Assembly: GCA_021647705.1 (NCBI GenBank)
Contig: JAKIUF010000025.1
Span: 1 to 60,648 of the forward strand
Source of the DNA: Gammaproteobacteria bacterium
Lineage (GTDB): Bacteria > Pseudomonadota > Gammaproteobacteria > SZUA-152
DNA length: 60,648 nt
Direction: 5' to 3'
In this document: piece after piece, positions 11,462 through 60,648 of the stretch
How positions within the stretch are numbered: position 1 is the first letter of the stretch
How the letters are laid out: each line of letters begins with the position of its first letter
Notes under the pieces: generated by a model
Seen by the model: the letters and a program-made list of their open reading frames with translations, nothing else
The model's database searches: none
What the model was told of the DNA's origin: nothing
Position numbers and translations under genes: made by a program

Positions 11462-11527
11462 CGCCCAATACCTTAGTATTTTAGTCAACTTACATTCCTG
11501 CTATTCACTCACTATTCCCGTATCCCC

Positions 11528-11908
11528 ATGCCAGCGAAGTACACCCTTAAAGTTGTCAGCGATTTTGCCTCCGCCCACACCCTGCGTGATTACCCTGGTG
11601 CCTGCTCACGCATGCACGGGCATAACTGGAAAGTCGAGGCTGAAGTAGAAGCCAGCCAGTTGAACAACGTGGGCATGGCCATTGATTTCAAGGCAATACG
11701 CCAGCAGGTGCGAGTATTAACCGACCTGCTTGACCATCGTTATCTCAATGAAATCAAGCCCTTTAATACTATCAACCCTACCGCAGAAAACATCGCTGCA
11801 TTTATTTTCAGCGGCTTGTCAGAAACACTTAACAACGAGCATATCCGCGTCAAGGCTATCACCTTGTGGGAAACCGAACGTGCCTGTGTACGTTTTACCA
11901 ATGATTAA
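11528..11908 (+). CDS. queD: 6-carboxytetrahydropterin synthase (QueD/PTPS family)
   Basis: This 126 aa protein converts 7,8-dihydroneopterin triphosphate to 6-carboxytetrahydropterin on the way to queuosine and other 7-deazapurines. The zinc ligands are His17, His30 and His32 (FASAHTL and MHGHNW), with the catalytic Cys26 in GACSRMHGH. LLDHRYLN and the C-terminal ETERACV are also family features. The adjacent folE2 product makes its substrate precursor from GTP, so the pair is functionally matched. Confidence 0.93.
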   Translation: MPAKYTLKVVSDFASAHTLRDYPGACSRMHGHNWKVEAEVEASQLNNVGMAIDFKAIRQQVRVLTDLLDHRYLNEIKPFNTINPTAENIAAFIFSGLSETLNNEHIRVKAITLWETERACVRFTND

Positions 11909-11942
11909 CCAGTGAAGACTCAAACCGTAAAAAGGAAAGCTC

Positions 11943-12734
11943 GTGACTGATTCCACTATTGCTGACGTACAAAATTCGGAAGATACCCGCCATCTGCCTA
12001 TCAACAAGGTCGGCATCAAGGATATCCGTCACCCGGTACGCATTCGTGACCGCTCCGGCGGCGAACAGCACACCATCGCCAACTTCAACATGTATGTGAA
12101 CCTGCCGCATAATTTCAAGGGCACACATATGTCGCGTTTTGTGGAAATACTCAACCAGCACGAACGCGAAATTTCAGTCGAGTCTTTCGAAGACATGCTG
12201 GCAGAAATGACCGAGCGCCTGGAGGCCGAATCCGGCCATATCGAAATGAGCTTCCCCTACTTCGTCAACAAAACGGCACCAGTATCCGGTGTGCAAAGTC
12301 TGCTGGATTACGATGTCACTTTTTTAGGCTCCAGTAGTGGCAACCAGCATGAAACAACACTCAAAGTGGTAGTGCCAGTTACCAGCCTGTGTCCCTGCTC
12401 AAAGAAAATTTCTGATCGCGGTGCGCACAATCAACGTTCACACGTTACAGTCACCATCAAAACACGCGAATTCGTCTGGATTGAAGACATCATTGATGCC
12501 GTAGAATCCATTGCTTCCTGTGAACTGTATGGCCTGTTAAAGCGCCCGGACGAAAAATACGTGACCGAACGCGCCTACGATAATCCAAAATTTGTGGAAG
12601 ACATGGTGCGTGATATCGCAGCACATATAAACCAGGATTCACGCATTACCGCCTACGTCGTGGAATCAGAAAATTTCGAGTCCATTCATAATCATTCGGC
12701 CTATGCGCTGATTGAAAAAAATATGACAACATAG
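11943..12734 (+). CDS. folE2: GTP cyclohydrolase FolE2 (type IB)
   Basis: The 263 aa GTP cyclohydrolase IB makes 7,8-dihydroneopterin triphosphate for folate and queuosine synthesis. The catalytic Cys lies in [19 protein letters not shown] (Cys150; HNQRS 162-166), and Glu-rich N-terminal tunnelling-fold segments are present. Unlike FolE, the type IB enzyme works without zinc, and many bacteria induce it under zinc limitation. The start is GTG at 11943 after AAAAGGAAAG. No Zur-type box was recognised upstream. Confidence 0.94.
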
Positions 12735-12753
12735 CTTGAGACTTGTTTTGCGC

Positions 12754-12922
12754 TATACCCGTAGCGTTTGGGGTTTGGGGTTTGGGTCTGAATGTGCGTC
12801 ATATTTATTTCATGGCTAGGCAAAATGACGCGGAATAGTCGTTCTATTGCAAGACATTGTAACGCCGCCGTGGAATCAATAGGGCGTGCAGTCAAACCTA
12901 AATCTCAATCACTACAGGTATA
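12754..12922 (+). repeat. MITE-like dispersed repeat, copy 1
   Basis: This element of about 169 bp begins TATACCCGTAGCG and ends at GGTATA, with inverted termini of roughly 28-30 bp including a GATTTAGGT-like block. It shares its whole length with copies at 17041, 22921 and 52884; copies 1 and 4 are in the same orientation. It lies 20 bp after the folE2 stop. The right terminus is degenerate (CACTACAGGTATA). Confidence 0.85.
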
Positions 12923-13159
12923 TATCGCGTTAAAATGTACATAATAAAGATTACCCTACAAACCTGATAAATGACGGGTGGCGGCATATTGTATGCCGCA
13001 TACACGCCATACACACTCCTAACGAGATATACAATGTCTCATCCTGCTCCTTTACCCTAGTTCCCGCAGTCATCCTTGGGGATTCATTATTTTAGCTTTG
13101 CGGGTGATTTCATATGCCCCAAACCTGACATGATTAAACACAACATAGGAGCAAGAGTG
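12923..13159. other. Gap between the repeat and the DUF3365 gene
   Basis: No gene is seen. It contains a perfect 8-bp hairpin GCGGCATA-TTG-TATGCCGC (12981-12999) without a T-run. It presumably holds the promoter of the DUF3365 haem-protein gene. Confidence 0.4.
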
Positions 13160-13759
13160 ATGAAAAGAAAGATATCTATTCAGAATGCAGCATTAGCATT
13201 AACACTGGGTCTGTCGGCGACAACCAGTGTAGCTGCTGATACTGTTGAACAACGCACTCAAGCGGCAATGGAAGTGGCACAATCCTTCATGATGCAATTG
13301 GGTAAAACCATGAAAAGCACAATGCAGAAAGATGGGCCTGTTGCGGCCATCAATGTGTGCTCAGAACAGGCGCCAAAAATGACAGCAGATATCTCCCGAA
13401 ATCAGGGTTGGAAAGTAACCCGCGTCAGCACCCGCGTGCGTAACCCCATGCTTGGCATGCCCGATGTATGGGAGCAAAAGGTACTGGCACAATTTCAGGC
13501 TCGCCTCGAGCAAGGAGAGTCCCTGAAAACGATGAGTTTCTCCGAGATGGTCACCGAGCCTAATGGTCGTTATTTCCGTTTCGCCAAAGCGATTGGAGTC
13601 AAACCTCAATGTTTAACCTGTCATGGCAATAAAAATGACATCCCCAGTACCGTGAAGCAAAAACTACATCAGCAATACCCCTTCGATAAAGCAACAAATT
13701 ATCGGGCAGGTGACCTACGAGGTGCGGTCAGCATAAAACAGCCTTTACCCAGCATGTAG
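13160..13759 (+). CDS. Periplasmic DUF3365 (Tll0287-like) c-type haem protein
   Basis: This 199 aa protein has a Sec signal peptide (basic MKRKIS, hydrophobic core, cleavage near SVAAD). A DUF3365/Tll0287-like domain follows, built around EVAQSFMMQLGKTMK, CSEQAPKMT and RVRNPM. One CxxCH haem-c site (CLTCHG) lies near residue 155. The domain is PAS-like and is thought to sense or carry electrons. The ATG at 13160 has GGAG upstream. It is followed by the sulfide:quinone oxidoreductase on the same strand, so it may belong to periplasmic sulfide or redox chemistry (inference). Confidence 0.88.
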   Translation: MKRKISIQNAALALTLGLSATTSVAADTVEQRTQAAMEVAQSFMMQLGKTMKSTMQKDGPVAAINVCSEQAPKMTADISRNQGWKVTRVSTRVRNPMLGMPDVWEQKVLAQFQARLEQGESLKTMSFSEMVTEPNGRYFRFAKAIGVKPQCLTCHGNKNDIPSTVKQKLHQQYPFDKATNYRAGDLRGAVSIKQPLPSM

Positions 13760-13938
13760 TTAATATGAAAATGCCCAACAAAGGATATTGATTATAAATT
13801 TGTGGATTGCTTTTTTTGATGAGTTTCAGAGTAAACAGCTAGCATTGGAAAAACAGGAAACTGACCAGCTAACTAACGGAGGCATGTGCATCACCCAATA
13901 CAGCTTCAATTTACGTTAAATAACGACTGAAAACATAA

Positions 13939-15240
<1,302 letters not shown>

Positions 15241-18218: not shown

Positions 18219-19450
18219 ACCACTGGTTGTTTAATTGCCAGAATCAAATCCATCACATTGGTACCCGTGGGCCCGGTAACAATCAAATCACCACTGGCTT
18301 GCAAAAATTCACCTGCATTTGCACTGGCCAACGTTTGCTGCACATTAAACCCGGCCTGTATTCCACGTTGTAAAGTATGCCCGTCCACCAAAGCACCCGC
18401 AGCTTGTGTCGGCCCATCACTGCCATCGGTGCCTGCGGCTAAAAAATAATGCGCCTCCATACCCGCTAATTCTACTGCTGCCGCCAATGCCAATTGTTGA
18501 TTGCGCCCACCCTGTCCAGGGTTCTCCGGTAAACACACAGTGGTTTCCCCACCCCAGACATGCAAACCAAATTCGCCATCACACAGCGTACGCACCAACT
18601 TCTGCCCCGCAAGTTGTGCGTCACATGTTATTAGGTCTTCATGTAAATAAACGTCATAGCCTAAAGTCATTGCCCTTTTTTTTGCAGCCTGCATAGCATC
18701 CTCAAGTTTTGCAACAATGTGGATATTAATCGTATTAAAACAAGCATCGCCCAATAAAGGTGCAGGTGGTGCCTTGGGCAGTTTTTTAATCCATTCCGGT
18801 ATATTCTCAGATTGTGATTCATCGCTAATATCCGGGCTTAAAAACCCCGAACCAATCACGTCTGGTGAATTATCCGGTACATCAGAAATCATCAGGCAGT
18901 TGACACGACGCCCTGTAAGTCGTTGCGCCAAACGTCCACCCTTGATACATGACAATGATTTTCGCACACGATTCATCGCCGTGATACTCCAACCACTGCC
19001 TAGCAACCACTGGTTTACTTTTTGCAGATCTTCCAGGTATAACCCATCCGGTAATACCTCCACCAGTGAAGAAGCTCCGCCGGAAATCAAAAATATAAAA
19101 TCCTGTTGCGCTGGTCGTACCGCCATAAACTCCAGCAATGCCTGTCCCGCACACACACTGCGTTGATCTGGCACAGGATGCGCTGATTCCAGACATTCAA
19201 TGTTTTTCATGCCTTGCAATTGTTTGTCACAATGTCCTTCCTTGGTAATCAACAAACCCTTATCAAATATATCCCCCAGAGCCGTTATTGCACCCAGCAT
19301 CATGCTCGATGCTGCTTTACCCATAGCAATCACAGCAACCGGCCGTCCCGAATCATAGTCCGACAATATCTGTCGTGTACAAATCTCCCCCTGCACGGCT
19401 GCCAATGCAGCGTGGTAAATTTGTAAAAGATCCCGGCGGGTTAAACTCAT
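18215..19450 (-). CDS. Glycerate 2-kinase (MOFRL / DUF4147 family)
   Basis: This 411 aa protein has an N-terminal DUF4147 domain (AVIAMGKAASSM, the LISGGASSLVEVLPDG nucleotide loop, ISDVPDNSPDVIGSG). A C-terminal MOFRL domain (GGETTVCLP, GRNQQLALAAA, AAGTDGSDGPT) completes it. It phosphorylates D-glycerate to 2-phosphoglycerate, linking glyoxylate, serine or glycerate metabolism to glycolysis. The gene is full length, starts at ATG 19450 and is divergent from the cyclase gene. Confidence 0.92.
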   Translation of the reverse strand: MSLTRRDLLQIYHAALAAVQGEICTRQILSDYDSGRPVAVIAMGKAASSMMLGAITALGDIFDKGLLITKEGHCDKQLQGMKNIECLESAHPVPDQRSVCAGQALLEFMAVRPAQQDFIFLISGGASSLVEVLPDGLYLEDLQKVNQWLLGSGWSITAMNRVRKSLSCIKGGRLAQRLTGRRVNCLMISDVPDNSPDVIGSGFLSPDISDESQSENIPEWIKKLPKAPPAPLLGDACFNTINIHIVAKLEDAMQAAKKRAMTLGYDVYLHEDLITCDAQLAGQKLVRTLCDGEFGLHVWGGETTVCLPENPGQGGRNQQLALAAAVELAGMEAHYFLAAGTDGSDGPTQAAGALVDGHTLQRGIQAGFNVQQTLASANAGEFLQASGDLIVTGPTGTNVMDLILAIKQPVV

Positions 19451-19553
19451 GTTTTGTCCTGCTTCATTTTTTATCGTTTACCTTGCTGAATACAGAGAGG
19501 ATGCGTATCCTCTCTATTGTGCAAACAGGAAAATCAACAAGGATGATTCTGCC

Positions 19554-22500
19554 ATGCTCTGCGAAAAATGTGGTTTCAAAAATCCGGGAAATATGCGCTT
19601 TTGTGGCCAATGCGCCACACCGCTAAATACCACCTGTCCTAGCTGTAATTTTAGCAATCCATTTGATTTTGAGTTTTGCGGACAATGTGCCACCCGCTTA
19701 AGCAAAATACAAAACACGGAAAACCGCTCCGCTATACCACCCCATACCCCCAAACAACAAAGCGCAGAACGCCGCCAACTCACTGTACTGTTTTGTGACA
19801 TCGTTGGTTCCTCTGCGCTTTCCGAGCGCATTGACCCGGAAGAACTACGCGATATCATGCGCGACTACCGTGACACCTGCAATAAAATTGTCAGTAGTTA
19901 TGATGGTTATGTCGCACAATACCTTGGTGATGGCATATTGGTGTATTTTGGTTATCCCCAGGCACATGAGGATGACGCACAACGCGCGACGTTTGCCGCA
20001 TTGGAAATTGTTAAACGTATCCCTAAGCATATTTACCCTATACAACAAAGCGACAATGTTCAGCTTGCGGTGCGCGTAGGCATTCATACCGGTCTGGTCG
20101 TGGTCGGCGAAATTGGCGGGGGCGATAAACGTTCGATGGCTCTGGGTGAAACGCCCAATATTGCTGCACGGGTTCAAGGCTACGCCAGTGAAAATACTGT
20201 GGTAATCAGTGGTTGCACACATCAGCTATTGAACCGGCGATTTGAATGCCAAACACTGGGAACCCACACACTAAAGGGTTTCTCCCAATCTTTTATACTT
20301 TTCCAAGTACAGCAAGTTCATGACAATAAAAATCGGTTTACGGAAACCGAGCATCCCTCCCGTACCATGCTGGTCGGGCGAGACCAGATAACCAATTTGT
20401 TAACAGAAAGACTTAATCAGGCACGTAAAGGTGTCGGGCACGTTGTTTTACTCAGCAGTGAACCTGGGATGGGAAAAACATGCATGGTGCGAATGATTTG
20501 TAAAAAGGCTGAAAAAGAACATTGCCTTTTTCTGAATTGTTATGGTGATTCTTATTACAAAAATAGTTTTCTTTATCCGGTTATGGATATGGTGCGCCGC
20601 ATTATCGGCCTGACCGAAAGCGATAGCCCACAAAAACAAATTTCACGTATCGAAAAAACAATTGCTGCCCTGGGTATGGAACCCAAAACAGTCACCCCCA
20701 TTCTAACTGAACTGTTATCCATTCCATTACCTGAAAAAATGGTTTCCAGCACTACGGAGACAATCTCCACCCCACAACAACAAAAACAGCGGACTTTCGA
20801 GATTCTTATCGATATGTTACAGGCTGCTGCACAACAACGCTTTATTCTATTTGTTGTAGAGGATTTACAATGGATAGATCCTTCCAGTATAGAATTATTG
20901 TCATTGCTCATCGATCAGCCTGGACTAACTAATATTTTTGCCCTTTTTACCTTCCGCAGCGACTTCTCCCCTCCGTGGGAAAATCGCGCCAGCGTGACAA
21001 ACATTACGCTTAACCGTCTCACTCAAAAACAATCCGGCAGCATGATCAGGCAACTGTGTCGAGGGAAAACGCTACCCACAGAAGTATTTGTTGAAATTAT
21101 TAATAAAACAGACGGCATCCCTCTTTTTGTTGAAGAACTCACCAATGCCGTGCTTCGGTCTTCATTACTGGTAGAAAAAGAAGAGCATTTTGAACTCAAC
21201 CACAATATGTCCCAATTGGAAATTCCCAGCACACTACAAGATTCTCTTATGTCACGTTTGGACAACCTGGGTGATGACAAAGAACTGGCACAGCTAAGTG
21301 CCACATTAGGACGTGAATTTACTTACGAACTATTACGTGCAGCCACTCTGCAAAGTGAACTCAGCCTGCAATCTGGCATGGACCGGCTCATTACTGCTGA
21401 ATTATTTATCCAGAGCGGAAAACCACCAAAAGCACATTACCGTTTTCAACATGCCCTGGTGAGGGAAGCCGCTTATCAATCATTATTAAAGCGCACACGC
21501 CAAAAATACCACCAGCGTATTTCCACACTTATCAAAGATAAATTCCCACAGCTTGTTGCCGATAACCCGGAAATTATTGCCCATCATTGTACAGAGGCTG
21601 GCAATAACGAAGATGCTTTACATTACTGGTTATCCGCAGGAAATTATGCCATTCGACACTCAGCCAATATCGAAGCCATCGAACATCTTAATAAAGGCCT
21701 TGCCTTAATTAAAAAAATACCTGAGTCACCCCAGCTGAGCATGCATGAACTTGCGCTACAAACCACACTGGGGCTGGCCACCATGATGAGTAAAGGTTAT
21801 GCCGCACCCGAAGCGGAAAAAGCTTATGCCCGAGCCTACAGCCTATGCCGCAACATAACAGACATCAATATCGTATTCCCTGTGTTATGCGGCCTCTGGG
21901 AATTTTACATTGTCCGTGCAGAGCTGGAAAAGGCATATAAACTCGCAAATGAAATACAACAATATGCAACAAAATCCAATATTTCGGAATTTTTACTGGA
22001 AGCAAAACGTGCGCTTGGTACTACATTATTTTGGAAAGGAAATTTTTCCGAAGCATTACAGAATCTTGAACTTCACATTGACCCTCAAGCCGGACAGGCT
22101 CGCTCGAAAGTGACGCTGGTTGCCTATAGTCAAGATGCTCAGGTCGCCTCCCTTGCCACTGCTGCATGTGTTTTATGGTTACTTGGAAAAACCGATCAGG
22201 CATTAACACGCGGCCAGGCTGCACTGAGTCTGGCCCAACGTCTTGCACACCCATTTAGCCAAGCTTATGCTTTACATTTCATGGGAACGCTGTCCCAACT
22301 TTGTGGCGACCACAAAGCCACCTATCGTTATGCGGATGCACAAATCACACTGAGTGAGACTTATGGTTTTTCATTTTGGGCAGCCACCGGCCATATGTTA
22401 AAAGCATGGTCTGAATCGATAAAACAACCGGCAGAAATCATTTGCAAACGCTTTCAACAGGCATTGCATGATTATGAAAAATCTGGAAATCGCCTCGCCC

Positions 22501-22796
22501 GTTCTTATTTTCAAGCCATCCTGGCGGAGCTTTTACATAATGCAGGAGAAACTGAAAAAGCCCGACAAACCATTGAGTCGGCGCTACGGGAAACCACCTT
22601 TACCGGCGAGGGGTTTTTTACCGCAGAACTGCTGCGCATCAAGGGCAGTTTTGCCATCGAAAACGGTACAGATGCTTACAATCTTGCAGAAAAATACTTG
22701 AATGAGTCATTGGCTATTGCCAAGCAACAAAACGCCCATGCCTTCGTATTACGCACAGAAACCAGTCTTGCCAAACTCCAAAAAAACCTGCTGTGA
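19554..22796 (+). CDS. Zinc-ribbon / nucleotide cyclase / AAA ATPase / TPR protein
   Basis: This large protein of about 1080 aa starts with two zinc ribbons (CEKC...CGQC, residues 3-20, and CPSC...CGQC, 28-45). A class III cyclase domain follows at about 75-245, with metal-binding Asp82 (FCDIVGSS) and Asp126 (GDGILVYFG). Next is an AAA_16-type ATPase (Walker A SEPGMGKT 302-309, Walker B ILFVVEDLQWID), then TPR-like helices to the end. Such proteins are STAND-type signalling machines that may make cAMP or cGMP on stimulus. ATG 19554 places the zinc ribbon at the very start. Confidence 0.88.
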   Translation: MLCEKCGFKNPGNMRFCGQCATPLNTTCPSCNFSNPFDFEFCGQCATRLSKIQNTENRSAIPPHTPKQQSAERRQLTVLFCDIVGSSALSERIDPEELRDIMRDYRDTCNKIVSSYDGYVAQYLGDGILVYFGYPQAHEDDAQRATFAALEIVKRIPKHIYPIQQSDNVQLAVRVGIHTGLVVVGEIGGGDKRSMALGETPNIAARVQGYASENTVVISGCTHQLLNRRFECQTLGTHTLKGFSQSFILFQVQQVHDNKNRFTETEHPSRTMLVGRDQITNLLTERLNQARKGVGHVVLLSSEPGMGKTCMVRMICKKAEKEHCLFLNCYGDSYYKNSFLYPVMDMVRRIIGLTESDSPQKQISRIEKTIAALGMEPKTVTPILTELLSIPLPEKMVSSTTETISTPQQQKQRTFEILIDMLQAAAQQRFILFVVEDLQWIDPSSIELLSLLIDQPGLTNIFALFTFRSDFSPPWENRASVTNITLNRLTQKQSGSMIRQLCRGKTLPTEVFVEIINKTDGIPLFVEELTNAVLRSSLLVEKEEHFELNHNMSQLEIPSTLQDSLMSRLDNLGDDKELAQLSATLGREFTYELLRAATLQSELSLQSGMDRLITAELFIQSGKPPKAHYRFQHALVREAAYQSLLKRTRQKYHQRISTLIKDKFPQLVADNPEIIAHHCTEAGNNEDALHYWLSAGNYAIRHSANIEAIEHLNKGLALIKKIPESPQLSMHELALQTTLGLATMMSKGYAAPEAEKAYARAYSLCRNITDINIVFPVLCGLWEFYIVRAELEKAYKLANEIQQYATKSNISEFLLEAKRALGTTLFWKGNFSEALQNLELHIDPQAGQARSKVTLVAYSQDAQVASLATAACVLWLLGKTDQALTRGQAALSLAQRLAHPFSQAYALHFMGTLSQLCGDHKATYRYADAQITLSETYGFSFWAATGHMLKAWSESIKQPAEIICKRFQQALHDYEKSGNRLARSYFQAILAELLHNAGETEKARQTIESALRETTFTGEGFFTAELLRIKGSFAIENGTDAYNLAEKYLNESLAIAKQQNAHAFVLRTETSLAKLQKNLL

Positions 22797-30255: not shown

Positions 30256-32385
30256 CTACGAGCCCATAAACCCGATAGATTTCCCAGCCCCTGGCTTGGC
30301 CTTGCATTCTTTTTCCAGCGCACTTAATAAATAACGCGGGTGAATCGTTTTATTCAGGCTCCGCGACTGACGCACGATCGTCGCAAAATCCCCAGGTGTG
30401 AGATTATCAAGTCGCGTTAAATCTGTTTTGTATTTCTGCGTCTCACTCGTCTTTAGATTACAGCCGTGCTCCTCCAGCACTTGCAGGAATAATGTCCACG
30501 CTTGTTCAGACTTCATGTAATCAAATTTTATTTTCAAATCAAAGCGGCGTAACGAAGCAGCGTCCACAAGATTCAGTAAATTCGTGGATGCGATGAACAC
30601 ACCATTAAAACTTTCCATTTGAACCAGTAGTTCATTAACCTGGGTGATTTCCCATGAATTTTGAGAGGAGCCGCGATCCAGGAGAAAACTGTCCACTTCA
30701 TCAACCAGCAACACCATGTCGTCAGCTTCGGCTTCATCAAACATGGCAGCGATATTTTTTTCTGCCTCCCCCACCCATTTGCTAAGAATGTCTGACGCCT
30801 GTTTTTTAAGCAGAGGCTTGTCCAACTGTTCCGCAACATAATGCGCAAAAGCGGTTTTTCCAGTGCCCGGTGCGCCATACAAACAAATACGTGCCTGATG
30901 GTTTTGCTGTAATCCTCTGGTCAACGCTTCCAAATCCTGGTCTGGGTTCAAATACTCAAGGCTGTAGCGGGTTTCACGGCTGATAACCGTACGAGGCTTA
31001 CGAGACAACCCCATAACCTGTAGTTTGTTACCAATAATCCTTTCCAGGTTTTTCTCCAATTCCTTTGTGTTTTCATCATCCAGGTGAGCTGCGATTTTGG
31101 CTGCGCTTTCAGCGTGTGCCGGCACTAGATGCTCATGTTCCGCCATTTGCGCCAACCAGGTGTCACTCAAGCCGAGATGACCAAGATATTTATCAAGAAT
31201 ACGCCGACGGATATTGCGTGTAGGAGAACGCAAATTCAGGACAAAATCAAAGCGACGCAGCACCGAATCATCCAGTTGCACCACGCTATTGCATAACCAG
31301 AATGCGGGAATTGAATTTTCCTCTAACAACTGATGCACCCAGGCTTTTTTAAAATCAGGACGTGTCACATGACCGAATGGACTGAAATTCACATCAGGAA
31401 AAGCATCTTCTATTTCATCAAACAAAATGGCAGATTTTTCTTTATTGGCCAACATTTTCTGGGTCAACTGATAAGCAGCGAAACGGTCTTTTCCATCAAT
31501 GGGATTACCATCCATGTCCTGCATGGTGATTTCGAATAACTCAAACCCACAGTACCGGCTTAAGGTTTTCACCAGCTCGGTTTTACCTGTGCCGGGTTCG
31601 CCGTATATCAATACGTTAATTCCTTGAACATCTTTTTTTTCAGCGGACTGTAAATAGCAGGCCAACAAATCAATATCCGTTTTCAAGTGAAGAAAATCCT
31701 CAATTGACAAATGCGACTGATCCGCTATTTTGAAAAAGCATTGCAATATTGCCCCGGGATTATTCTGCTCCTGTGTCAAAGCGTATTTGATACTGTGCGG
31801 AACATCAAAGCACTGCTGTAATGAATGCATATAGTGGCCACTGGTATTAATACGCAGCAGCCCCGAGGATATTAATGCACCATTGGTACGCATAGCATTC
31901 TCAACATCACTGAGAGAAACATTCAGAATTATCGACAGGGTGTGCCTAATTTGTTCATTGCTCATTTCCCCGAGCGTTTCGACCACCATATTAAACCCCG
32001 CAGACGAACCCGATACGATAACAAATCGTAATATGTCAATTTCACACTGCGTCAGGTTTAACGATTTCTGAAGAACAGCAATATTAATGGAAAAAACATC
32101 TTGGGGAGGCGTCAGCGTATCGCTTTCCAATGTTTTTAACGTATTGGACAAATTAGAAAATATAGTTTTTTTATCAATGCTTTCATCTTGCAGAAATGCT
32201 GACAACCCCAAAACATGCATTGTTTCCGGATCATGCAAACCACCATAACGATCAAAAAATCGGTTAAAGACATTCAACCGAATCAGGATGCGTAGATTCC
32301 AGAGCTTCAACAACAGATCACAATCTGAAGTTTTGTGGGCATCCACATTGGCAGAGGATTGTTTGTTGTCATTTACTTGGGTCAT
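30256..32385 (-). CDS. Double AAA+ ATPase inserted between folC and accD
   Basis: The 709 aa protein has an N-terminal helical domain (1-230) of unknown type, then two AAA modules. AAA1 has Walker A GEPGTGKT 262-269, Walker B ILFDEIED 320-327 and Arg377/378. AAA2 has Walker A GAPGTGKT 504-511, Walker B LLVDEVD 559-565, sensor TN 601-602 and RR 613-614. The second is VPS4/FtsH-like, with a KWVGE pore-loop-like segment. It probably remodels or extracts proteins as a ring. It is followed closely by folC and preceded by a membrane-protein gene, a likely partner. It is not part of the standard cluster. Confidence 0.85.
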   Translation of the reverse strand: MTQVNDNKQSSANVDAHKTSDCDLLLKLWNLRILIRLNVFNRFFDRYGGLHDPETMHVLGLSAFLQDESIDKKTIFSNLSNTLKTLESDTLTPPQDVFSINIAVLQKSLNLTQCEIDILRFVIVSGSSAGFNMVVETLGEMSNEQIRHTLSIILNVSLSDVENAMRTNGALISSGLLRINTSGHYMHSLQQCFDVPHSIKYALTQEQNNPGAILQCFFKIADQSHLSIEDFLHLKTDIDLLACYLQSAEKKDVQGINVLIYGEPGTGKTELVKTLSRYCGFELFEITMQDMDGNPIDGKDRFAAYQLTQKMLANKEKSAILFDEIEDAFPDVNFSPFGHVTRPDFKKAWVHQLLEENSIPAFWLCNSVVQLDDSVLRRFDFVLNLRSPTRNIRRRILDKYLGHLGLSDTWLAQMAEHEHLVPAHAESAAKIAAHLDDENTKELEKNLERIIGNKLQVMGLSRKPRTVISRETRYSLEYLNPDQDLEALTRGLQQNHQARICLYGAPGTGKTAFAHYVAEQLDKPLLKKQASDILSKWVGEAEKNIAAMFDEAEADDMVLLVDEVDSFLLDRGSSQNSWEITQVNELLVQMESFNGVFIASTNLLNLVDAASLRRFDLKIKFDYMKSEQAWTLFLQVLEEHGCNLKTSETQKYKTDLTRLDNLTPGDFATIVRQSRSLNKTIHPRYLLSALEKECKAKPGAGKSIGFMGS

Positions 32386-53082: not shown

Positions 53083-55173
53083 TTAAAAATTCCAGCGATA
53101 CCCCAGGTTGGCGAACAAGCGCCGGAAATCAGGGTTATTGGAATCACCGCCATAACGCCACCATTCCACGCCGATTTCCGCTTCGTAATACATGGTCTGC
53201 TTTTGGCGGAAATTCCATTTCACTGAAGGCCGGTATCTGGTCAGGTCTTCGCCTGAATCATTTTGACGCAGATCAACACGCATTCGGGTGTCGAATTTCC
53301 ATTTGTTTTTCAGTGGCAGACGATTAGAAGCGGATAATGAGAGTTCGTCATAATTGCTGGTCTGCGAGAGCCGCATACCCAACACACTGGTATCGCGATC
53401 ATTAAACCATTTATTAGCGATAAGTTGACTGGAAAAATAAATCTGTTGATCGCTGTCATTGATTAAAACACCCGGCGTGACATCGTCAATGACAAAATTT
53501 TGTTTGGCAAATGTCAGGTCTGCATTGAGTTGATAACGTGCGCTCAATGTGTGGCTCACGCCCAACGAAAATGTGCTTGAGTCACCCACACGATTTTCTG
53601 CTAATTCATTGATGTGGTTTTCACCGTGCGTATTCAGTAATTCACTAATGCTCGACACATCAGTGCGCCCGATCAAGGCATGAGAGGTAAACAATAAAGG
53701 ACTGTTTCGATAATCAAAATTCAGATTAAAAATCGTGTTTTTCCGCCAATTATACTGGCCACGAAAAAGATAAATATTCAGGTCTGTGTAGTGAATATCA
53801 TAATCAACAAGGCCGTAAAAATTACCCAACTTATGAAAAAACCGAAACTCGCTACCGATGGCCTCGCGGTCAATAATGCTATCCACTTCCTGTCGAATAT
53901 AATAGGGCAGAATATCGACCCCCTCGCCGGCACCATCCAGTTCAAGACCAATCCCCCAAAAAGGTTTTTGTGATTGAATGCTGCGCTTATCACTGATATT
54001 GACGGGATACCCCACCACAGCATTCACAGCAATTTTTTGTGTAACGTCATAACTGGCACGTAGCCCGTCAAATTTACCTAACACACCACCGCCGGAACCG
54101 GTTTGCCGACCCGCACGACCCGAGAAACCCCAGCGACTGTTTTTGAGCTGGCTATACGCCGTTTCCAAAGTTATGGCCTTACCTGTCTCACTGGAAAAGT
54201 CATAACTCTGGTTAGCATAAACAAAGTTACGAATATCATAGTCAGCATTGCGAATACGCCAATTAACAGACAATTGATTCAACAGCAAAGACTGATCGAC
54301 CGAGCTACCGGCATCTTCAATATTGTTTTCACCACGATAATAATATTGGGCAAAGCTGCCATAAATACGTGATGTGGTTTTTTTGTCTCTGGATTTTTTG
54401 GCGGGCTTCAGCCGTGCCCGGGGCTTTAATTGAGCATGTAATAAATCCTGCAATCGTTGCTTGACTCGCGCCGCGCCCTCACTGTCGGGGTATTGTTTCA
54501 GGTACTCCCTGTACATGATTTTGGCATGTGCTTTTTGGTGATTGCGCTCCCTTGCTACACCCAACAACTCCATCGCCTCTTGTCGTTCCGGACTTTCAGG
54601 CAGCCCCAGCATTTTGGTAAAAATACGAACTGCTGTTTTGTTTTCATGCTGTTTAAGTGCCTTGCGCCCCAATACCAACAACCTGAAAGCCTTGCTGTCA
54701 ATTACCTTCATGGTACGTGCATTTTTCAGCTGCACGGCCTGCGTTACTTTCAGTCCTGGCAGAATAATCATCAGCGTGTTAAAACGGCGGCCAGCCGATA
54801 CCGTGAAATTCACCACCCGCCTAAAATCCACGACGACGGAGGATTCACCAGCCTCGTTAATACGGAATGTCACTTGCGTCAACGGCACCTCGCCGGAGTC
54901 TGGCGCACGCATTGCCTGGGCATACGGCAGTTTATCCACATCGACATCCACGGCAGTACGAGGCCCGATGAAAATTTGTAACGTTGCGCCAGACTCCAGC
55001 GGGAAATTCGACATGTAGTTCACCGGCTGCGCAAAACCAATTTCTATCGCGGCCATACCCTGGTGAGTCAGATATTCAATGCTTTCCAATGATTGACTTG
55101 GCAATGCCCAGGCCTGGGAGCACACCGCGAAGCACACTCCCGTTACCTGAAACCAAAATCGCAAACCTCTCAT
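53083..55173 (-). CDS. Outer-membrane beta-barrel protein of the multiheme cluster
   Basis: This 696 aa protein has a signal peptide (cleavage near SQAWA-LPSQ) and an AMIN-like beta domain (about 30-150). A TPR-like helical part (about 165-255) is followed by a basic linker and then a C-terminal barrel of about 420 residues with many alternating strands. It ends in the C-terminal Phe (ANLGYRWNF) that BAM recognises. It is last in the operon behind two multiheme cytochromes, so it is likely the porin sheath of an electron conduit, as MtrB/MtoB are. Sequence relation to MtrB is not evident. Confidence 0.8.
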   Translation of the reverse strand: MRGLRFWFQVTGVCFAVCSQAWALPSQSLESIEYLTHQGMAAIEIGFAQPVNYMSNFPLESGATLQIFIGPRTAVDVDVDKLPYAQAMRAPDSGEVPLTQVTFRINEAGESSVVVDFRRVVNFTVSAGRRFNTLMIILPGLKVTQAVQLKNARTMKVIDSKAFRLLVLGRKALKQHENKTAVRIFTKMLGLPESPERQEAMELLGVARERNHQKAHAKIMYREYLKQYPDSEGAARVKQRLQDLLHAQLKPRARLKPAKKSRDKKTTSRIYGSFAQYYYRGENNIEDAGSSVDQSLLLNQLSVNWRIRNADYDIRNFVYANQSYDFSSETGKAITLETAYSQLKNSRWGFSGRAGRQTGSGGGVLGKFDGLRASYDVTQKIAVNAVVGYPVNISDKRSIQSQKPFWGIGLELDGAGEGVDILPYYIRQEVDSIIDREAIGSEFRFFHKLGNFYGLVDYDIHYTDLNIYLFRGQYNWRKNTIFNLNFDYRNSPLLFTSHALIGRTDVSSISELLNTHGENHINELAENRVGDSSTFSLGVSHTLSARYQLNADLTFAKQNFVIDDVTPGVLINDSDQQIYFSSQLIANKWFNDRDTSVLGMRLSQTSNYDELSLSASNRLPLKNKWKFDTRMRVDLRQNDSGEDLTRYRPSVKWNFRQKQTMYYEAEIGVEWWRYGGDSNNPDFRRLFANLGYRWNF

Positions 55174-55204
55174 TGAAATCTGTTTTTTGTTGTGTCAGGC
55201 AAGC

Positions 55205-57049
55205 CTAAAAATCTCCACCATTCGGACTGTGTTCCCTGTTGCGTGTCTTTTTAATCGTGCTGAACGTGTTGTCGGTATACTCGTGACAAGACGATGAGCA
55301 ATCACGTAATTCACTAATGGTATAAAAAATGGTGCGGGGGTTTTTCGTTTTTTTATGTTCGTCACTCTCCCAGTCATCCGCATGACAACCTGCACAATCG
55401 GGCTTGTAACCAGGATTTTCCCAGACTGAAGATTCGCTATTTCCCGTGTGACATCCAGTGCATGACAAACCACTGTGTCCACTCGGATAGCCGGATGTTA
55501 CATGATCATAACGTACCGATGTCCAGCTCTGGGTGGTATGGCAAACATCACATTGCCGGGAAGAAATAAAATGATTATCAGCCTTGCCCGTTGCCGTCAC
55601 ACCATTGTGGCAACTGTTGCAAAGACCGCTTGATGAATTATGATCGAAGGTTGCAGGCAACCAGGCTGTCGTTGTATGGCAAACCTCACACTCTCCTGAA
55701 GTTGTAATATGGGCATTGTGTTTCCCGGTAGCCGTCGTTCCATTATGGCAACTGCTGCATGAACCCGCCGCACTATTGTGGTCAAAACTGGCGGGTAACC
55801 AGGCATTCGTGCCATGACAAACATCGCACTCGCCAGTGGTTTGAATGTGAGTACTGGATTTACCCAGCGCAACACCACCATCATGACAAGAGCTGCACGT
55901 TCCGGTAATACCGTCATGTGAAAAATTCGCTGGCAGCCAGGCAATGGTGCCATGGCAATCAATACAGTCTGAGGCAGTTTGCAAATGATTGCCTGATTTA
56001 CCGGTGGCCGTTACCCCGTTGTGACAACTGTTACAGGCACCACTGAACGAGCTGTGATCAAACGTCGCAGGCAACCAGGCCGTTGTTGTGTGACAAATTT
56101 CACACTCCCCTGATGTTGTAACATGACCACTATGTTTCCCTGTAGCCATTGTTCCATTATGGCAACTGCTGCATGCGCCCGTCGCACTGTTATGATCAAA
56201 ACTGGCAGGCAACCAAGCATTTGTACTATGGCACATATCGCATTCGCCAGCGGTTTGAACATGATTGTCCGACTTGCCCGGCGCAACGTCGCCATTGTGG
56301 CAAGAGCTGCATGCTCCAGTGATATCGTCATGTGAAAAATTGGCAGGTAACCAGGCACTGGTACTATGGCAGTTAATACAGTCTGAGACAGTTTGCGTAT
56401 GATTGGCTGATTTACCTGTCGCCTGCGCACCATTGTGACAACTGCTGCAACGTGCAGTTACTGCATTATGATCAAAGCGGGCGGGTGTCCAGGCCACAGT
56501 ATTATGGCAGTCATCACATTGCGCCGCCGTTTGAATATGATTCACTGATTTACCTTTTGCTGTCACTCCGTTGTGGCAATTACTGCAATTCTCCGACACC
56601 GCGCCATGCTCAAATCTCGCAGGTAACCAGCCCACCGTGCCATGGCATTCATCACACTGGGCACGGGTTTGAATATGTTGTGCAGGCAATTGGGTATTGT
56701 GACATTGCGTACATGAACCTACCGTAGAAGAATGATCCATAGCCGCAGCCTGCCAGGCAAAGATGGTATGACAATCATCACAAGCTGCCGTGCTGGCGAC
56801 ATGCTGATCCGGTTTTCCCGGTGCGATAGAACCATTATGGCAACCGTTGCAGGTTAACGGCGTTCCCTTGAAGACCCCACGTAAATGACACGCGGAGCAA
56901 GGTACCGTTTGATGTTGGCCGGACAAGGGGAAGCCCGTCTCGAAGTGGTCAAAGTTCTGTTTTGGTGCAGCCATGCCCAATGCGGGCAATAACAGCCACA
57001 AAGTCACCAGCAACAATACATATTGTGTTAAACCACTCCTGACTTTCAT
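55205..57049 (-). CDS. Multiheme c-type cytochrome with 23 CxxCH motifs in 46-residue repeats
   Basis: This 614 aa exported protein (signal ending LPALGMAA) has 23 canonical CxxCH haem motifs and one CxxxCH (CSSSCH, residues 584-589). Most of it is a tandem 46-residue unit with two hemes each (CxxCHxTxAWLPAxFDH, then CSSCHNGxxATGK). Residues 224-361 and 362-499 are a duplicated block of three units. It should form a long periplasmic or surface haem wire. It lies 47 bp after the 21-haem gene and 31 bp before the barrel gene. Resembles the large cytochromes of PCC3-type clusters (inference from gene content). Confidence 0.9.
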   Translation of the reverse strand: MKVRSGLTQYVLLLVTLWLLLPALGMAAPKQNFDHFETGFPLSGQHQTVPCSACHLRGVFKGTPLTCNGCHNGSIAPGKPDQHVASTAACDDCHTIFAWQAAAMDHSSTVGSCTQCHNTQLPAQHIQTRAQCDECHGTVGWLPARFEHGAVSENCSNCHNGVTAKGKSVNHIQTAAQCDDCHNTVAWTPARFDHNAVTARCSSCHNGAQATGKSANHTQTVSDCINCHSTSAWLPANFSHDDITGACSSCHNGDVAPGKSDNHVQTAGECDMCHSTNAWLPASFDHNSATGACSSCHNGTMATGKHSGHVTTSGECEICHTTTAWLPATFDHSSFSGACNSCHNGVTATGKSGNHLQTASDCIDCHGTIAWLPANFSHDGITGTCSSCHDGGVALGKSSTHIQTTGECDVCHGTNAWLPASFDHNSAAGSCSSCHNGTTATGKHNAHITTSGECEVCHTTTAWLPATFDHNSSSGLCNSCHNGVTATGKADNHFISSRQCDVCHTTQSWTSVRYDHVTSGYPSGHSGLSCTGCHTGNSESSVWENPGYKPDCAGCHADDWESDEHKKTKNPRTIFYTISELRDCSSSCHEYTDNTFSTIKKTRNREHSPNGGDF

Positions 57050-57096
57050 TTCGTCACCTTTTTATTTCCATTCCTGCATATCAGGCAGGCTATTGT

Positions 57097-58737
57097 TTAT
57101 TGTCTTATGCTGACGTCAGAAAAAGATTTTGTGTTATGACAACGCTGACAACGACGACCAAACTCTCCATCGTGTGCATCGTCCTGTAAATGACAGCCCT
57201 GACAATCGTTGGGCATGTCCATTTCTTTATCCACCGGCTCCCGGTGACAGGCTATGCAAACGATACCTTTGTGTTTCCCCGTCAATTCAAAATCTGTCTG
57301 CTTGTCATGGTCAAATTCCCACGCCTTCCAGTCCCCCACGTAGTGACACACATCACATTTCGCTCCCAGAGTGCGCTCGTGTACATCATCGCCCTTATGA
57401 CACGCTAAACAGGATGTTTTGGTGTCCTTGAAATTACCGGAATCATGGCATTCCTCACATGCCAGTGCCGCATGGGCACCCAATAACGGGAATTCTGCCA
57501 AATTGTGATCAAAATCCACTTTATGCTGCCAGCCTTTTTCGTTATGACATTCCTGGCATTCTTTGCCTTGTTTTTCATGATGCACATCGTCCTGTCGATG
57601 ACAGGAAAAACAATCCGTTTTTAAGTTTTCTTCGTAAAGCACACCTGGGTGACAGTCACCGCAAGCCACCTTTTTATGTTTTCCCTTAAGCGGGAAATCT
57701 GTTTCTTTGTGGTCAAATGTAGACTTGTTCCAGGTTTTTACCATATGGCAAGCGTGACATTTACGTCCGTATTGCCCTTTGTGTTCATCCTGTAAACGGT
57801 GACAGGCATAACAACCTGTAGTTGCTTTTTTATTTTTCTTCTTCGTGTTTTCCTTCACATAGACTTTAAAGCCTTCGCTGCGATGGCACTGCTGACAGCT
57901 CACAGACGTGTGCCGTCCTTTCAGTGGATAGTCCGTATCCTTGTTGTGATCAAATTTCTGGCTTCCCCAGCCAGATACTGAGTGACAGTCCTGACATTTT
58001 TTACCATAGCGCCCTTTGTGTTTATCATCACCTTTGTGACAGGCAACACATTTTCCGGGCACACCACTGTAACGTTCTTGCGGGTGACATAAACGGCATT
58101 CCACACCTTTGTGTTTTCCTTTTAACTTGAATTTGGTCGTCGCATGATCAAAGCGAAAATCTTGCCAGCGCGTTTGTGCATGGCAACTACCGCACTGTTT
58201 GCCCAGGCGACCATCATGTGCATCATCAGATTTGTGACACTTGACACATTGTTTCGGTGCCTGGTGATAAGGTGTTGCTTTCCCGGTTTTTTTATTATTT
58301 TTATGACAAGCCTGACAGGGTGCATCACCATGTCGTCCACGCAGGGGAAAATCGGTTAAACGATGATCAAAGGCCTGTTTATCCAGCAACACAATGGAAT
58401 ACTGCCTTCCTTTGTGCTCTGAGTGACAAACGCGACATTCTTTATTTTTTACATCAGGAATACGCCCGTGATAACCCTCTCCCTTTTTAATATCCTCGGC
58501 AATGTTTTTGTGATCATGACAATCCAGGCACAAACCATTTTGCTGTTCCTGTCCAAACAATTTGTGACAATCCGTACAACTGTCTTCAAATTTGGCATGG
58601 GCTGCGGAAAGCTCACCAGGCATTAATGCCCTTTCCATAGCATCAAACATACCTGCTTGAGCATCATTCAGTATTGCGCTGAACAACAGCAACCAGACAC
58701 TGACAATACCCCACCGTAAAAACATTTTATTCCGCAA
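57097..58737 (-). CDS. Multiheme c-type cytochrome with 21 CxxCH motifs
   Basis: This 546 aa exported protein (signal ending LNDAQA-GMF) has 21 CxxCH motifs and many extra His (FDH, KGKHKGVEC, DDAHDGR) able to be distal ligands. Recurring units follow the pattern FDH...DFPLKGKHK...CxxCH...CxxCHKGDDxH...GxxCxxCH, about 70 residues with three hemes. It is Lys-rich and basic, unlike its Ser/Thr/Gly-rich 23-haem neighbour, which suggests different cellular positions. It is probably the periplasmic relay. It starts 5 bp after the membrane cytochrome gene's stop. Confidence 0.9.
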   Translation of the reverse strand: MRNKMFLRWGIVSVWLLLFSAILNDAQAGMFDAMERALMPGELSAAHAKFEDSCTDCHKLFGQEQQNGLCLDCHDHKNIAEDIKKGEGYHGRIPDVKNKECRVCHSEHKGRQYSIVLLDKQAFDHRLTDFPLRGRHGDAPCQACHKNNKKTGKATPYHQAPKQCVKCHKSDDAHDGRLGKQCGSCHAQTRWQDFRFDHATTKFKLKGKHKGVECRLCHPQERYSGVPGKCVACHKGDDKHKGRYGKKCQDCHSVSGWGSQKFDHNKDTDYPLKGRHTSVSCQQCHRSEGFKVYVKENTKKKNKKATTGCYACHRLQDEHKGQYGRKCHACHMVKTWNKSTFDHKETDFPLKGKHKKVACGDCHPGVLYEENLKTDCFSCHRQDDVHHEKQGKECQECHNEKGWQHKVDFDHNLAEFPLLGAHAALACEECHDSGNFKDTKTSCLACHKGDDVHERTLGAKCDVCHYVGDWKAWEFDHDKQTDFELTGKHKGIVCIACHREPVDKEMDMPNDCQGCHLQDDAHDGEFGRRCQRCHNTKSFSDVSIRQ

Positions 58738-58742
58738 AGCCC

Positions 58743-59645
58743 TTAATACATGTGCACAGCAATCACATGCACTACACCGCTAAACAACAGCAAATACAAC
58801 AATGGCACATGAGCATGACGCCAAAAGGCAAAAAAACGTTCATAAACGCTGAACAACGCTACTTTACGTAACGTACACATATAGGTGCGCAATTGACGTC
58901 GAAAAGCCTTACGTTGCTGGCACAACTTCGCCGCGGTCCAGGCTTCCTGTTTTGCCATGATTTTCAGATGACGTTTCATATCACGCCGCAACTGGAAAGT
59001 CAGCCAGCGGCTGCGCCAGCCAAAAGCCATCAGGTCCAGCCCGGCATTAAACAAACCTCCGGGGTGCGACATCACTGAAGCCGAAAAATTATCCAGACGG
59101 CGTGACTTGATACGCTTGCCTGCCATCACCAGACTGGACTGCACATCCACCAATTGCGCCTTGCTGCCACCCAGGCCGTAATGAATTTTGGAATAAAGAA
59201 AGCGGCCCATAACACCACTGAGAAAAACGAGAACCATTGAGACCAAAGCCACTGCACCATTCAGGGAGCCCAGGTGAAATGTGGAATGCACCAAAACCAG
59301 CAGGGGACCGGTGATGCCAAAAAAGATATGCAGGTCCAGCCAACGTTTCATCCAGCCCAAAGCTCTTAACGCCGGAATATGTTTGAACAGGCCATATACC
59401 ATCGCTAGTAACATCATCACCCCACCCACCAGACCCAACCAGTAACCCAGTCCTTCTTCTGCTACGTAATAACGCTCGTCCCAATAGCTACGCCCCACAA
59501 CAAAGAGTGTCACCATAAACAGGATCAGGCCCAGGGCAAAAAAGAGTTCGCTATCACGGGCAAGCTGTTTTACATCATGCATAGCCGTGTGTGTTTTGGC
59601 AGACTCGGCAGACGAATTTATTTCAATGGTCATATTACTGCTCAT
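58743..59645 (-). CDS. Membrane cytochrome b-like protein of the multiheme cluster
   Basis: This 300 aa protein has about five helices: ALGLILFMVTLFVVG, WLGLVGGVMMLLAMVYGLF, LHIFFGITGPLLVLVHSTFH, ALVSMVLVFLSGVMGRFLY and VPLLYLLLFSGVVHVIAVH. His106, His120, His124, His279, His293 and His298 are placed in or near helices, as expected for b-haem ligation. A basic cytoplasmic loop spans about 175-265. It likely connects the quinone pool or the divergent ferredoxin/flavoprotein to the multiheme chain. Start 59645; ATG 59633 is an alternative. Confidence 0.8.
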   Translation of the reverse strand: MSSNMTIEINSSAESAKTHTAMHDVKQLARDSELFFALGLILFMVTLFVVGRSYWDERYYVAEEGLGYWLGLVGGVMMLLAMVYGLFKHIPALRALGWMKRWLDLHIFFGITGPLLVLVHSTFHLGSLNGAVALVSMVLVFLSGVMGRFLYSKIHYGLGGSKAQLVDVQSSLVMAGKRIKSRRLDNFSASVMSHPGGLFNAGLDLMAFGWRSRWLTFQLRRDMKRHLKIMAKQEAWTAAKLCQQRKAFRRQLRTYMCTLRKVALFSVYERFFAFWRHAHVPLLYLLLFSGVVHVIAVHMY

Positions 59646-59776
59646 ACCACCAAATTCTTATTATACTGTGGGAAATTATCATTAGTATGTTCATACTTGC
59701 CGAGGGTATTCTGGGAGCCATACTCCGTAAAACCTGACGTTGAACGCTGCCTGCACAGGAATAGTTCCACCTATCT

Positions 59777-60648
59777 ATGGAATCTTCATCACTGCTACAA
59801 AACACCGGACAATACAGCATTTTACTGGTGTATCTGATCCCTGTTGCCTTAATTTGGTTATGGCGTATCCACCGCGCCCGTGCTGCCACCCAGCGTCACA
59901 GTGAGGCTTTGCAAGAGACTCAACAAGCCGGGCTTACCGAGCCCGCCTCACTGCATCCGCTGATCAATCGTGACCTGTGCATTGCTTGCAATGCCTGTGC
60001 CAAAGCCTGCCCGGAACATGAGGTACTGGCGGTTATCCACGACAAGGTGGAATTGATAAATCCCACACACTGTATCGGCCACGGTGCCTGCAAACGCGCC
60101 TGCCCGGTGGATGCCATAACCCTGGTTTTTGGCACTGAAAAACGGGGTGTTGATATTCCCAATGTTGACCCTTCGTTTGAAACCAATGTACCCGGTATTT
60201 TCATTGCGGGTGAACTCGGTGGCATGGGGCTGATTCGTAACGCCATCACCCAGGGTCGGCAAGCTATGGACGCCATCAATAAAAAGGAACGCTCCACCGA
60301 TCCCGAACGACTCGACATAGTCATCATCGGTGCCGGGCCCGCTGGTTTTTCCGCCTCCCTGGGTGCAATGAAACACAAACTGCGCTTTGTCACCCTGGAA
60401 CAGGAAACCCTCGGTGGTACCGTTTCCCACTACCCGCGTGGCAAAGTAGTGATGACCCAGCCCGCCGAACTTCCGCTGGTGGGCAAGGTACGCTTCCGCG
60501 AAACCACCAAAGAAGACCTGATGGACTTCTGGGAAAAAATAGTCCGTGACACCGGCCTGAAGGTGAACTGCGGCGAGGCCATGAGCAGCATTGCCGTGAC
60601 CGATGATGGTTACCGCATCACCACCCCCAAGACCACCTACAAAACCAA
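59777..60648 (+). CDS. Membrane-anchored 2[4Fe-4S] ferredoxin / FAD-NAD(P) oxidoreductase, truncated by window end
   Basis: The frame opens at ATG 59777 and is still open at the window end (290 aa seen). An N-terminal membrane helix (SILLVYLIPVALIWLW) precedes two [4Fe-4S] motifs, CIACNACAKACP and CIGHGACKRACP. A thioredoxin-reductase-like FAD/NAD(P) domain follows, starting at VIIGAGPAGFSASLGA. It could pass electrons between NAD(P)H or ferredoxin and the membrane. It is divergent from the cytochrome operon with a 131-bp shared promoter region, so joint function is likely. Confidence 0.88.
   Translation, partial: MESSSLLQNTGQYSILLVYLIPVALIWLWRIHRARAATQRHSEALQETQQAGLTEPASLHPLINRDLCIACNACAKACPEHEVLAVIHDKVELINPTHCIGHGACKRACPVDAITLVFGTEKRGVDIPNVDPSFETNVPGIFIAGELGGMGLIRNAITQGRQAMDAINKKERSTDPERLDIVIIGAGPAGFSASLGAMKHKLRFVTLEQETLGGTVSHYPRGKVVMTQPAELPLVGKVRFRETTKEDLMDFWEKIVRDTGLKVNCGEAMSSIAVTDDGYRITTPKTTYKT

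Follow-up and report, generated by a model that had tools for sequence, protein, structure and literature searches.

The window analysed here, 60,648 nucleotides long, is one whole contig (C33; JAKIUF010000025.1) of the 4.44-Mb, 96% complete draft genome of a gammaproteobacterium. The right-hand end of the window carries a porin-cytochrome cluster of the PCC3 type, an operon for an inner-membrane protein (IMP), two multihaem cytochromes and a large outer-membrane barrel, together with a divergently transcribed gene for a membrane-anchored iron-sulfur flavoprotein (Table 1). All five open reading frames (ORFs) were found where the original prediction had placed them, and the operon that it described is borne out by the ORFs, by the motif counts and by the model of the barrel. 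The promoters of both transcription units are presumed to sit between the divergent IMP and flavoprotein genes.

Table 1. Features of the PCC3 locus at the right-hand end of the window.
Feature	Coordinates	Strand	Evidence
PCC3 porin	53083..55173	-	AlphaFold model, strand list, structural matches, homologues in class genomes
Extracellular-type multihaem cytochrome, 23 CxxCH + 1 CX3CH	55205..57049	-	motif counts, spacing, composition, family, C-terminal signature
Periplasmic-type multihaem cytochrome, 21 CxxCH	57097..58737	-	motif counts, PF14522 matches, alignment, spacing
PCC3 IMP, predicted di-haem b	58743..59645	-	motifs, basic loop, homologous ORFs
Intergenic region between the divergent IMP and flavoprotein genes, 131 bases, presumed site of both promoters	59646..59776	.	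coordinates
Membrane-anchored 2x[4Fe-4S] / TrxR-like FAD-NAD(P) protein, first 290 residues	59777..60646	+	domains, anchor, relative's fold, co-occurrence

The cluster is a member of PCC3 and not a new system, because gene content, haem numbers, IMP motifs and homology to an already assigned locus all agree; the likeness to PCC3 noted at first sight is thereby confirmed. Published papers are cited here for individual passages of their text. PCC3 is defined by four genes, with medians of 21 haems in the periplasmic and 34 (10 to 85) in the extracellular cytochrome (PMC5566968, PMC10734462). He et al. 2017 (PMC5566968) describe an SGxxG and two WX3HX13H motifs in the IMPs of PCC3 and PCC4 and name Bradyrhizobium sp. 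STM 3843 as a PCC3 bearer. The locus of STM 3843 (L084) holds the flavoprotein, the IMP and an 18-haem periplasmic cytochrome, and the barrel is present in its genome. It belongs to a set of 80 named loci, the best 80 of at least 552 confirmed relatives of the flavoprotein in GTDB species genomes, which lean to close relatives; the PCC3 genes of Sideroxydans lithotrophicus ES-1 lie outside these 80, and the homology rests on the comparison with STM 3843. The record titles of the named loci point to Gammaproteobacteria, Alphaproteobacteria, Gallionella, Sideroxydans and a few others (Deltaproteobacteria, Nitrospirae). The nearest relative among them is Ectothiorhodospiraceae bacterium NORP100 (L059), with 82% identity in the flavoprotein and 76% in the barrel.

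Homologues of the barrel were found in 26 genomes, the own genome included, of a sample of 185 genomes of the class. Among 29 stretches surrounding barrel relatives, most of those with enough room on the contig show one and the same succession: IMP, periplasmic cytochrome, outer cytochrome, barrel. The exceptions are L032 with two outer-type cytochromes before the barrel (37 and 73 motifs), L040 also with two (69 and 23), L037 lacking the periplasmic cytochrome, and L054 (genome G159) together with the weak matches L056 and L058, which lack any multihaem cytochrome. The window shares with published PCC3 the same four genes, haem numbers within the range, the IMP motifs and an outer cytochrome of low complexity, rich in Thr, Ser, Ala and Gly. 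It differs in that its outer cytochrome stays under the published haem median and that about 22 barrel strands are predicted here against up to 42 from the predictor of He et al. A further difference is the divergent flavoprotein, of which no earlier description as a PCC3 part was found in the literature text searched (figures and supplements lay outside the search); terms for it are absent from the searched text of PMC5566968, PMC10734462, PMC8788666, PMC12442390 and PMC12016527 and from the PCC3 passages of PMC13386937.

The flavoprotein and PCC3 travel together. In the class sample (cut-offs of E<=1e-40 for the flavoprotein and E<=1e-20 for the barrel) the flavoprotein was found in 25 genomes, the barrel in 24 and both in 23; the flavoprotein is thus present in 23 of the 24 strong-barrel genomes against 2 of the 161 others (Fisher p 5e-26, not corrected for kinship). 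Two genomes with weak barrel matches, G136 (E 5e-4) and G156 (E 2e-7), were removed from the barrel set after the list had been seen; neither has a flavoprotein match, and with both included the overlap is 23 of 26. The genome G093, which has the flavoprotein and no barrel, carries a periplasmic PCC3 cytochrome about 1.2 kb from it. In G159, with the barrel and no flavoprotein, the ~13 kb surrounding the barrel are free of multihaem cytochromes, and a periplasmic PCC3 cytochrome is absent genome-wide. A phylum sample of 249 genomes, which overlaps the class sample (G000, G086), gave the flavoprotein in 4 of 4 barrel genomes, the new ones being G435 and G337; a partial, weaker flavoprotein match without barrel occurs there in G139.

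The surroundings of the flavoprotein in the named loci agree with this. Another PCC3 part lies within 10 kb in 69 of the 80 loci (IMP in 64, periplasmic cytochrome in 57, barrel in 43, all three in 36). When the whole genomes of the remaining 11 were searched, a strong barrel was found in 8 and a periplasmic cytochrome in 1; L083 and L129 stay without a PCC3 part, the genome of L083 having a barrel match at E 7e-4 only. Of the 64 loci with an IMP, 57 have it upstream of the flavoprotein in divergent orientation and 7 are arranged otherwise; the gap between the two genes does not exceed 700 bases in 36 of the 57. This genome-wide co-occurrence backs the earlier idea that the ferredoxin/flavoprotein completes a path from the cytoplasm to the cell surface, and we propose that the flavoprotein is a fifth, dedicated component of PCC3.

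The divergent ferredoxin/flavoprotein gene expected here does exist, although in the window it is cut by the contig end at 60648, leaving the first 290 residues in comparison with 443 in the nearest relative. Contig C5 opens with the missing C-terminal part, and its downstream gene order is that of NORP100: flavoprotein, HIT-like protein, ankyrin-type protein, MFS, aroC and MotB/MotA (names from sequence reading). There is no exact overlap between the end of the window and the start of C5, and the first residues of C5 differ from the last ones of the window. A second, paralogous copy was considered for the C5 fragment and dropped; because the gene order matches that of NORP100, the fragment is likely the continuation of the window flavoprotein, perhaps from a strain variant.

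Judging from its sequence, the flavoprotein is predicted to consist of an N-terminal anchor, a domain with two [4Fe-4S] clusters and a TrxR-like FAD/NAD(P) domain. The full-length NORP100 protein (443 residues) was modelled with pLDDT 85.3 and pTM 0.69. Its residues 177–443 align with YpdA (7a76_D) with Z 24.1 and rmsd 3.2 over 264 residues. This C-terminal region is aligned to the first ~272 residues of YpdA, while the last ~50 YpdA residues have no partner there; a segment with ETNVPGIFIAGELGG, resembling the missing end of YpdA, precedes the first Rossmann motif of the NORP100 protein. If this segment is moved to the C terminus, the score rises from 86.4 to 93.9 bits against 7a76_A and from 87.5 to 92.1 bits against 7a7b_A, the control being the same 326 residues in native order; the match, which otherwise stops at YpdA residues 274 and 267, then extends to 297 and 294, respectively. 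The whole unpermuted protein scores 84.9 (7a76_A) and 86.3 bits (7a7b_A). Several TrxR entries shift by less than 1 bit upon the permutation, and 7jyp (52.2 to 49.4) and 2a87 (45.6 to 44.8) fall. The flavin domain is therefore probably circularly permuted, with modest support from the sequence. Among YpdA, TrxR and TrxR-like ferredoxin-NADP reductases the likeness is seen in the alignment with YpdA; unlike YpdA and TrxR, the flavoprotein is probably permuted, is preceded by the anchor and the iron-sulfur domain and has no CxxC.

The first iron-sulfur motif, C-x2-[C/S/A]-x2-C-x3-C, is present in all 81 flavoprotein ORFs of the named loci (Cys at the variable position in 76, Ser in 4, Ala in 1), and the second one, C-x2-H-x2-C-x3-C, is invariant in all 81; both are carried by the window protein. 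The histidine of the second motif, invariant also in 14 alignment rows, is a putative cluster ligand. In some hydrogenases a His-ligated exit cluster hands electrons towards haem b. The flavin part contains two GxGxx[GSA] motifs in 81 of 81 ORFs and a redox-active CxxC in none of them. Since the flavin part lacks CxxC, electrons probably leave the flavoprotein via the clusters rather than via a disulfide. Positive charge is higher after the anchor-like segment than before it in 44 of 44 testable rows (one of the 45 rows was dropped, its anchor landmark being absent). This charge pattern, together with the basic loop between transmembrane helices 4 and 5 of the IMP (26 Lys/Arg against 6 Asp/Glu), suggests that the flavoprotein and the loop face the cytoplasm.

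In the IMP (300 residues, PCC3 IMPs having about 300) the W-x3-H-x13-H motif occurs at residues 102 and 275, and SGxxG lies at 143. Its hydropathy profile shows six peaks, of which three overlap; they may be read as five transmembrane helices, the number given for PCC3 IMPs. Among 65 homologous ORFs all motifs are kept in 63, and the other two are pieces at a single locus, L081. The IMP is predicted to bind two haems b. It resembles the di-haem b proteins of the ferric reductase / NOX type in the HX13H pairs on two helices, a similarity already pointed out by He et al. 2017 (PMC5566968), and would also resemble them in being fed by a cytoplasmic flavoprotein. The ferric reductase domain PF01794 is absent among the Pfam matches of the IMP at E<=1, and the flavin module of the window, unlike that of these enzymes, is a separate TrxR-like protein with predicted iron-sulfur clusters.

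The numbers of CxxCH motifs in the two cytochromes, 21 and 23, are far beyond chance: 2000 shuffles of the same proteins gave a mean of 0.3 and a maximum of 3. Both proteins match c7/c3-type Pfam families and start with a signal-peptide-like N terminus. The 44 haems counted originally hold as far as CxxCH is concerned; the potential total is 45, given an extra CX3CH at residue 584 of the outer cytochrome, an end common among its relatives. Among 36 complete outer-type ORFs of the named loci, CX3CH is found within the last 70 residues in 21 and CX4CH in 8 more (29 of 36 with either end).

In the outer cytochrome of the window 18 of the 22 motif intervals are exactly 23 residues long, and Thr, Ser, Ala and Gly make up 39.9% of the protein against 22.0% in the 21-haem one. 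It is predicted to be of the extracellular type, built mostly from 23-residue one-haem repeats, and would be located at the cell surface. The outer cytochromes of relatives contain about 12 to 73 CxxCH motifs. The one with 73 is encoded at L032 (7929-13424), and those of L119 and L137, from symbionts of the clam Ctena, have 67. Four complete outer ORFs with 8 to 11 CxxCH (L062, L082, L110 and L125) were rejected as the lower limit; in each the C-terminal signature is not a usual one or the ORF is only one of two pieces, and broken genes or assemblies may lie behind the low numbers. The outer cytochrome of L131 has 11 CxxCH with a CX4CH end.

The 21-haem cytochrome is composed of c7-like three-haem modules matched by PF14522, with c7-like motif spacing near 16, 18 and 33 residues and a few irregular steps; its homologues recur across the clusters, and similarity suggests a periplasmic location. 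In 55 complete periplasmic-type ORFs of the named loci the raw CxxCH number is 21 in 32 cases, 18 in 17, 24 in 5 and 22 in 1, so that the protein grows by whole three-haem modules. The single value of 22 (L115) was not accepted as an exception to this rule: the extra motif, at residue 10 and 114 residues before the rest, is probably upstream of the true start and an artefact of start-site choice. Of the 17 cytochromes with 18 haems, 14 come from loci with alphaproteobacterial record titles (counted by eye). The published Gallionellaceae values of 21, 24 and 27 (PMC10734462) fit the three-haem steps, as do 21 and 24 in ES-1 (PMC8788666, PMC12016527), where gene order points to Slit_0869 as a periplasmic cytochrome.

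According to its AlphaFold model (pLDDT 85.5, pTM 0.59), the barrel protein comprises a signal sequence, an N-terminal beta domain (~29–150), five TPR-like helices (~161–246; the TPR profile match is below the cut-off) and a C-terminal outer-membrane barrel (~267–695). The barrel fold is clear in the model; the number of about 22 long strands is our own count, with 642–658 taken as one bent strand, and is not settled. In a Foldseek search the top ranks went to smaller porins (OccK2, TM 0.30 relative to query length). When its matches were aligned a second time, BT1762-1763 (5t3r_D; Z 19.8, rmsd 4.3) and the siderophore receptor PirA (5fp2_A; Z 19.2, rmsd 4.1, 366 residues aligned) came out best.

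Other porin-cytochrome systems differ in part. The PCC4 of He et al. 2017 (PMC5566968) shares the pattern of IMP motifs and the presence of other redox genes alongside; it is described there with three periplasmic cytochromes (4, 5 and 10 haems) and no extracellular one, whereas the window operon holds only the 21- and 23-CxxCH proteins. MtrCAB, MtoAB and PioAB likewise combine a porin with multihaem cytochromes across the outer membrane; the haem numbers and the IMP of the window differ from theirs. Against the model of DmsE-type decahaem cytochromes, TIGR03508, the window cytochromes score 72.8 and 22.0 bits, with a cut-off of 192.2. The cluster reported for Methylobacter on an anode (PMC13322032) is of the DmsE/MtrA type.

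Taken together, the locus rather probably encodes a complete PCC3 conduit with a flavoprotein that connects NAD(P)H or ferredoxin of the cytoplasm with the b haems of the IMP, outward flow of electrons being somewhat the likelier. The flavoprotein would be held on the cytoplasmic face by one N-terminal helix; there its FAD would be the partner of NAD(P)H or ferredoxin in electron exchange, followed by the two iron-sulfur clusters. From the clusters, by contact between the two proteins, the electrons would pass to the two b haems of the IMP, further to the 21-haem wire and then to the 23–24 haems of the outer cytochrome at the cell surface. Discharge driven by NAD(P)H or ferredoxin, comparable to a ferric reductase of great length, is slightly favoured over uptake because electron transfer from Fe(II) to NAD(P)+ would be uphill. 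In this arrangement the two b haems would cross the inner membrane, as He et al. 2017 (PMC5566968) propose; the 21-haem cytochrome would bridge the inner membrane to the barrel, and the barrel would hold the junction from which the outer cytochrome extends outside. In ES-1, transcript levels of both PCC3 clusters on Fe(II) are below those on thiosulfate (PMC8788666), which is consistent with outward flow.

An extension of this proposal to the family can be offered tentatively, and as a whole it is somewhat doubtful: PCC3 would be a five-component outward conduit fed by NAD(P)H or ferredoxin, not an iron oxidase, with the anchored permuted flavoprotein as its dedicated input. The His-bearing second cluster of the flavoprotein would be comparable to the His-ligated exit cluster of hydrogenases mentioned above. 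The periplasmic cytochrome might serve as a ruler in three-haem steps (18, 21, 24), and the outer arm would be free to grow, up to 73 CxxCH.

Several points weigh against an outward conduit with the flavoprotein as its input. We know of no biochemistry for any PCC3 part. The IMP has neither a Pfam match above the cut-off nor an NCBIfam match. The flavoprotein gene is read in the direction opposite to the operon, and in several genomes (G001 and G111 among them) it is not on the contig that bears the barrel. It is separated from the IMP by more than 700 bases in 21 of the 57 divergent loci; in G098, L083/G188 and L129/G195 it is found without a strong barrel or a periplasmic cytochrome. He et al. 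2017 have the IMP serve the quinone pool, which is compatible with the present data (PMC5566968). The expression in ES-1 says little on the direction (PMC8788666, PMC12016527); its proteome table gives zeros for the outer PCC3 cytochrome Slit_1448 throughout the eight columns (PMC12016527). Transcriptomics of strain CL21 shows higher expression of the PCC3 copy 2 IMP in cells that oxidize iron, and the authors call the PCC3 complex functionally unverified (PMC12442390).

The published model (PMC5566968) would reverse the flow: electrons of extracellular Fe(II), minerals or electrodes would run inward through both cytochromes to the IMP and the quinone pool. The flavoprotein would in that case be an accessory, e.g. 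in reverse electron transfer. The CL21 transcripts speak for this model, as do 26 genomes of Gallionellaceae iron oxidizers that have a complete PCC3 and 11 that have a partial one, in a table of 87 (PMC10734462). Still, it seems rather unlikely, for both ES-1 clusters are lower on Fe(II), and a model with quinone only leaves the near-constant NAD(P)/FAD/iron-sulfur partner unexplained. The emphasis of the original prediction on neutrophilic iron oxidizers is weak for the same ES-1 data and also with respect to the own genome, where 13 matches to the MtoA/MtrA family were found, none over the cut-off (Cyc2 was not searched). The case for an iron-oxidation role of PCC3 is accordingly weak.

Two further explanations concern the flavoprotein itself. 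It could act as a maturation factor that provides reducing power for cysteine thiols or haem while the giant cytochromes are assembled, in line with its TrxR/YpdA-like fold and its link to genomes that have such cytochromes. This role is highly improbable: the flavin part is devoid of CxxC throughout, and the iron-sulfur domain points to one-electron transfer. The least probable explanation is that the flavoprotein is a neighbour by ancestry, co-transferred with PCC3 and unrelated in function. Its location on the opposite strand and the patchy distribution of PCC3 in the class, suggesting transfer as a block, would agree with this; it is, however, kept on other contigs or away from the cluster, and it persists while the layout varies (upstream of the IMP and divergent from it in 57 of 64 loci, arranged differently in 7). 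The conduit with the flavoprotein as cytoplasmic partner is thus preferred here.

As for the host, the coupling of sulfide to metal or electrode chemistry suggested earlier for the window is unsupported. The one SQR-like ORF (13957-15240) scores 121.6 bits against a cut-off of 525 and lies about 38 kb from the cluster; the coupling was rejected on these grounds, 10 of the 43 ORFs of at least 200 residues left of 53000 having been scanned. Elsewhere in the window, a large protein (19449-22796) reaches 585 of the 706 bits required by a TOMM kinase/cyclase fusion model, and an ATPase-like protein (30256-32385) is a partial match, far under the cut-off, to the model of an anti-phage ATPase (IteA).

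Two other multihaem loci are present in the same genome. The second locus, L148 (G000:C19:56000-74529), contains in 447-14545 three three-haem cytochromes, two NHL/propeller proteins and two 11-haem proteins; it resembles the Uet system of cathode-oxidizing Tenderiales as described in the text of PMC10734462, and no four-haem protein was seen in the stretch. The third, L147 (G000:C29:45000-62000), encodes in 5523-13535 proteins with 12, 3, 6, 6, 8 and 7 CxxCH motifs, the first of which carries NHL repeats. From these loci, the host may have several routes of extracellular electron transfer.

Apart from the fifth gene, which is unexpected from the four-gene definition, the window cluster is an ordinary PCC3. 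PCC3 is widespread in Pseudomonadota and is regularly listed as a candidate iron oxidase. A flavoprotein partner in nearly every sampled PCC3 genome predicts which cytoplasmic pool is served. This protein could be purified and assayed in soluble form without its anchor, and the repetitive cytochromes are harder to recognise than it is. Should it indeed pass electrons to the IMP, the common view that PCC3 takes electrons from Fe(II) and delivers them to the quinone pool would need revision.

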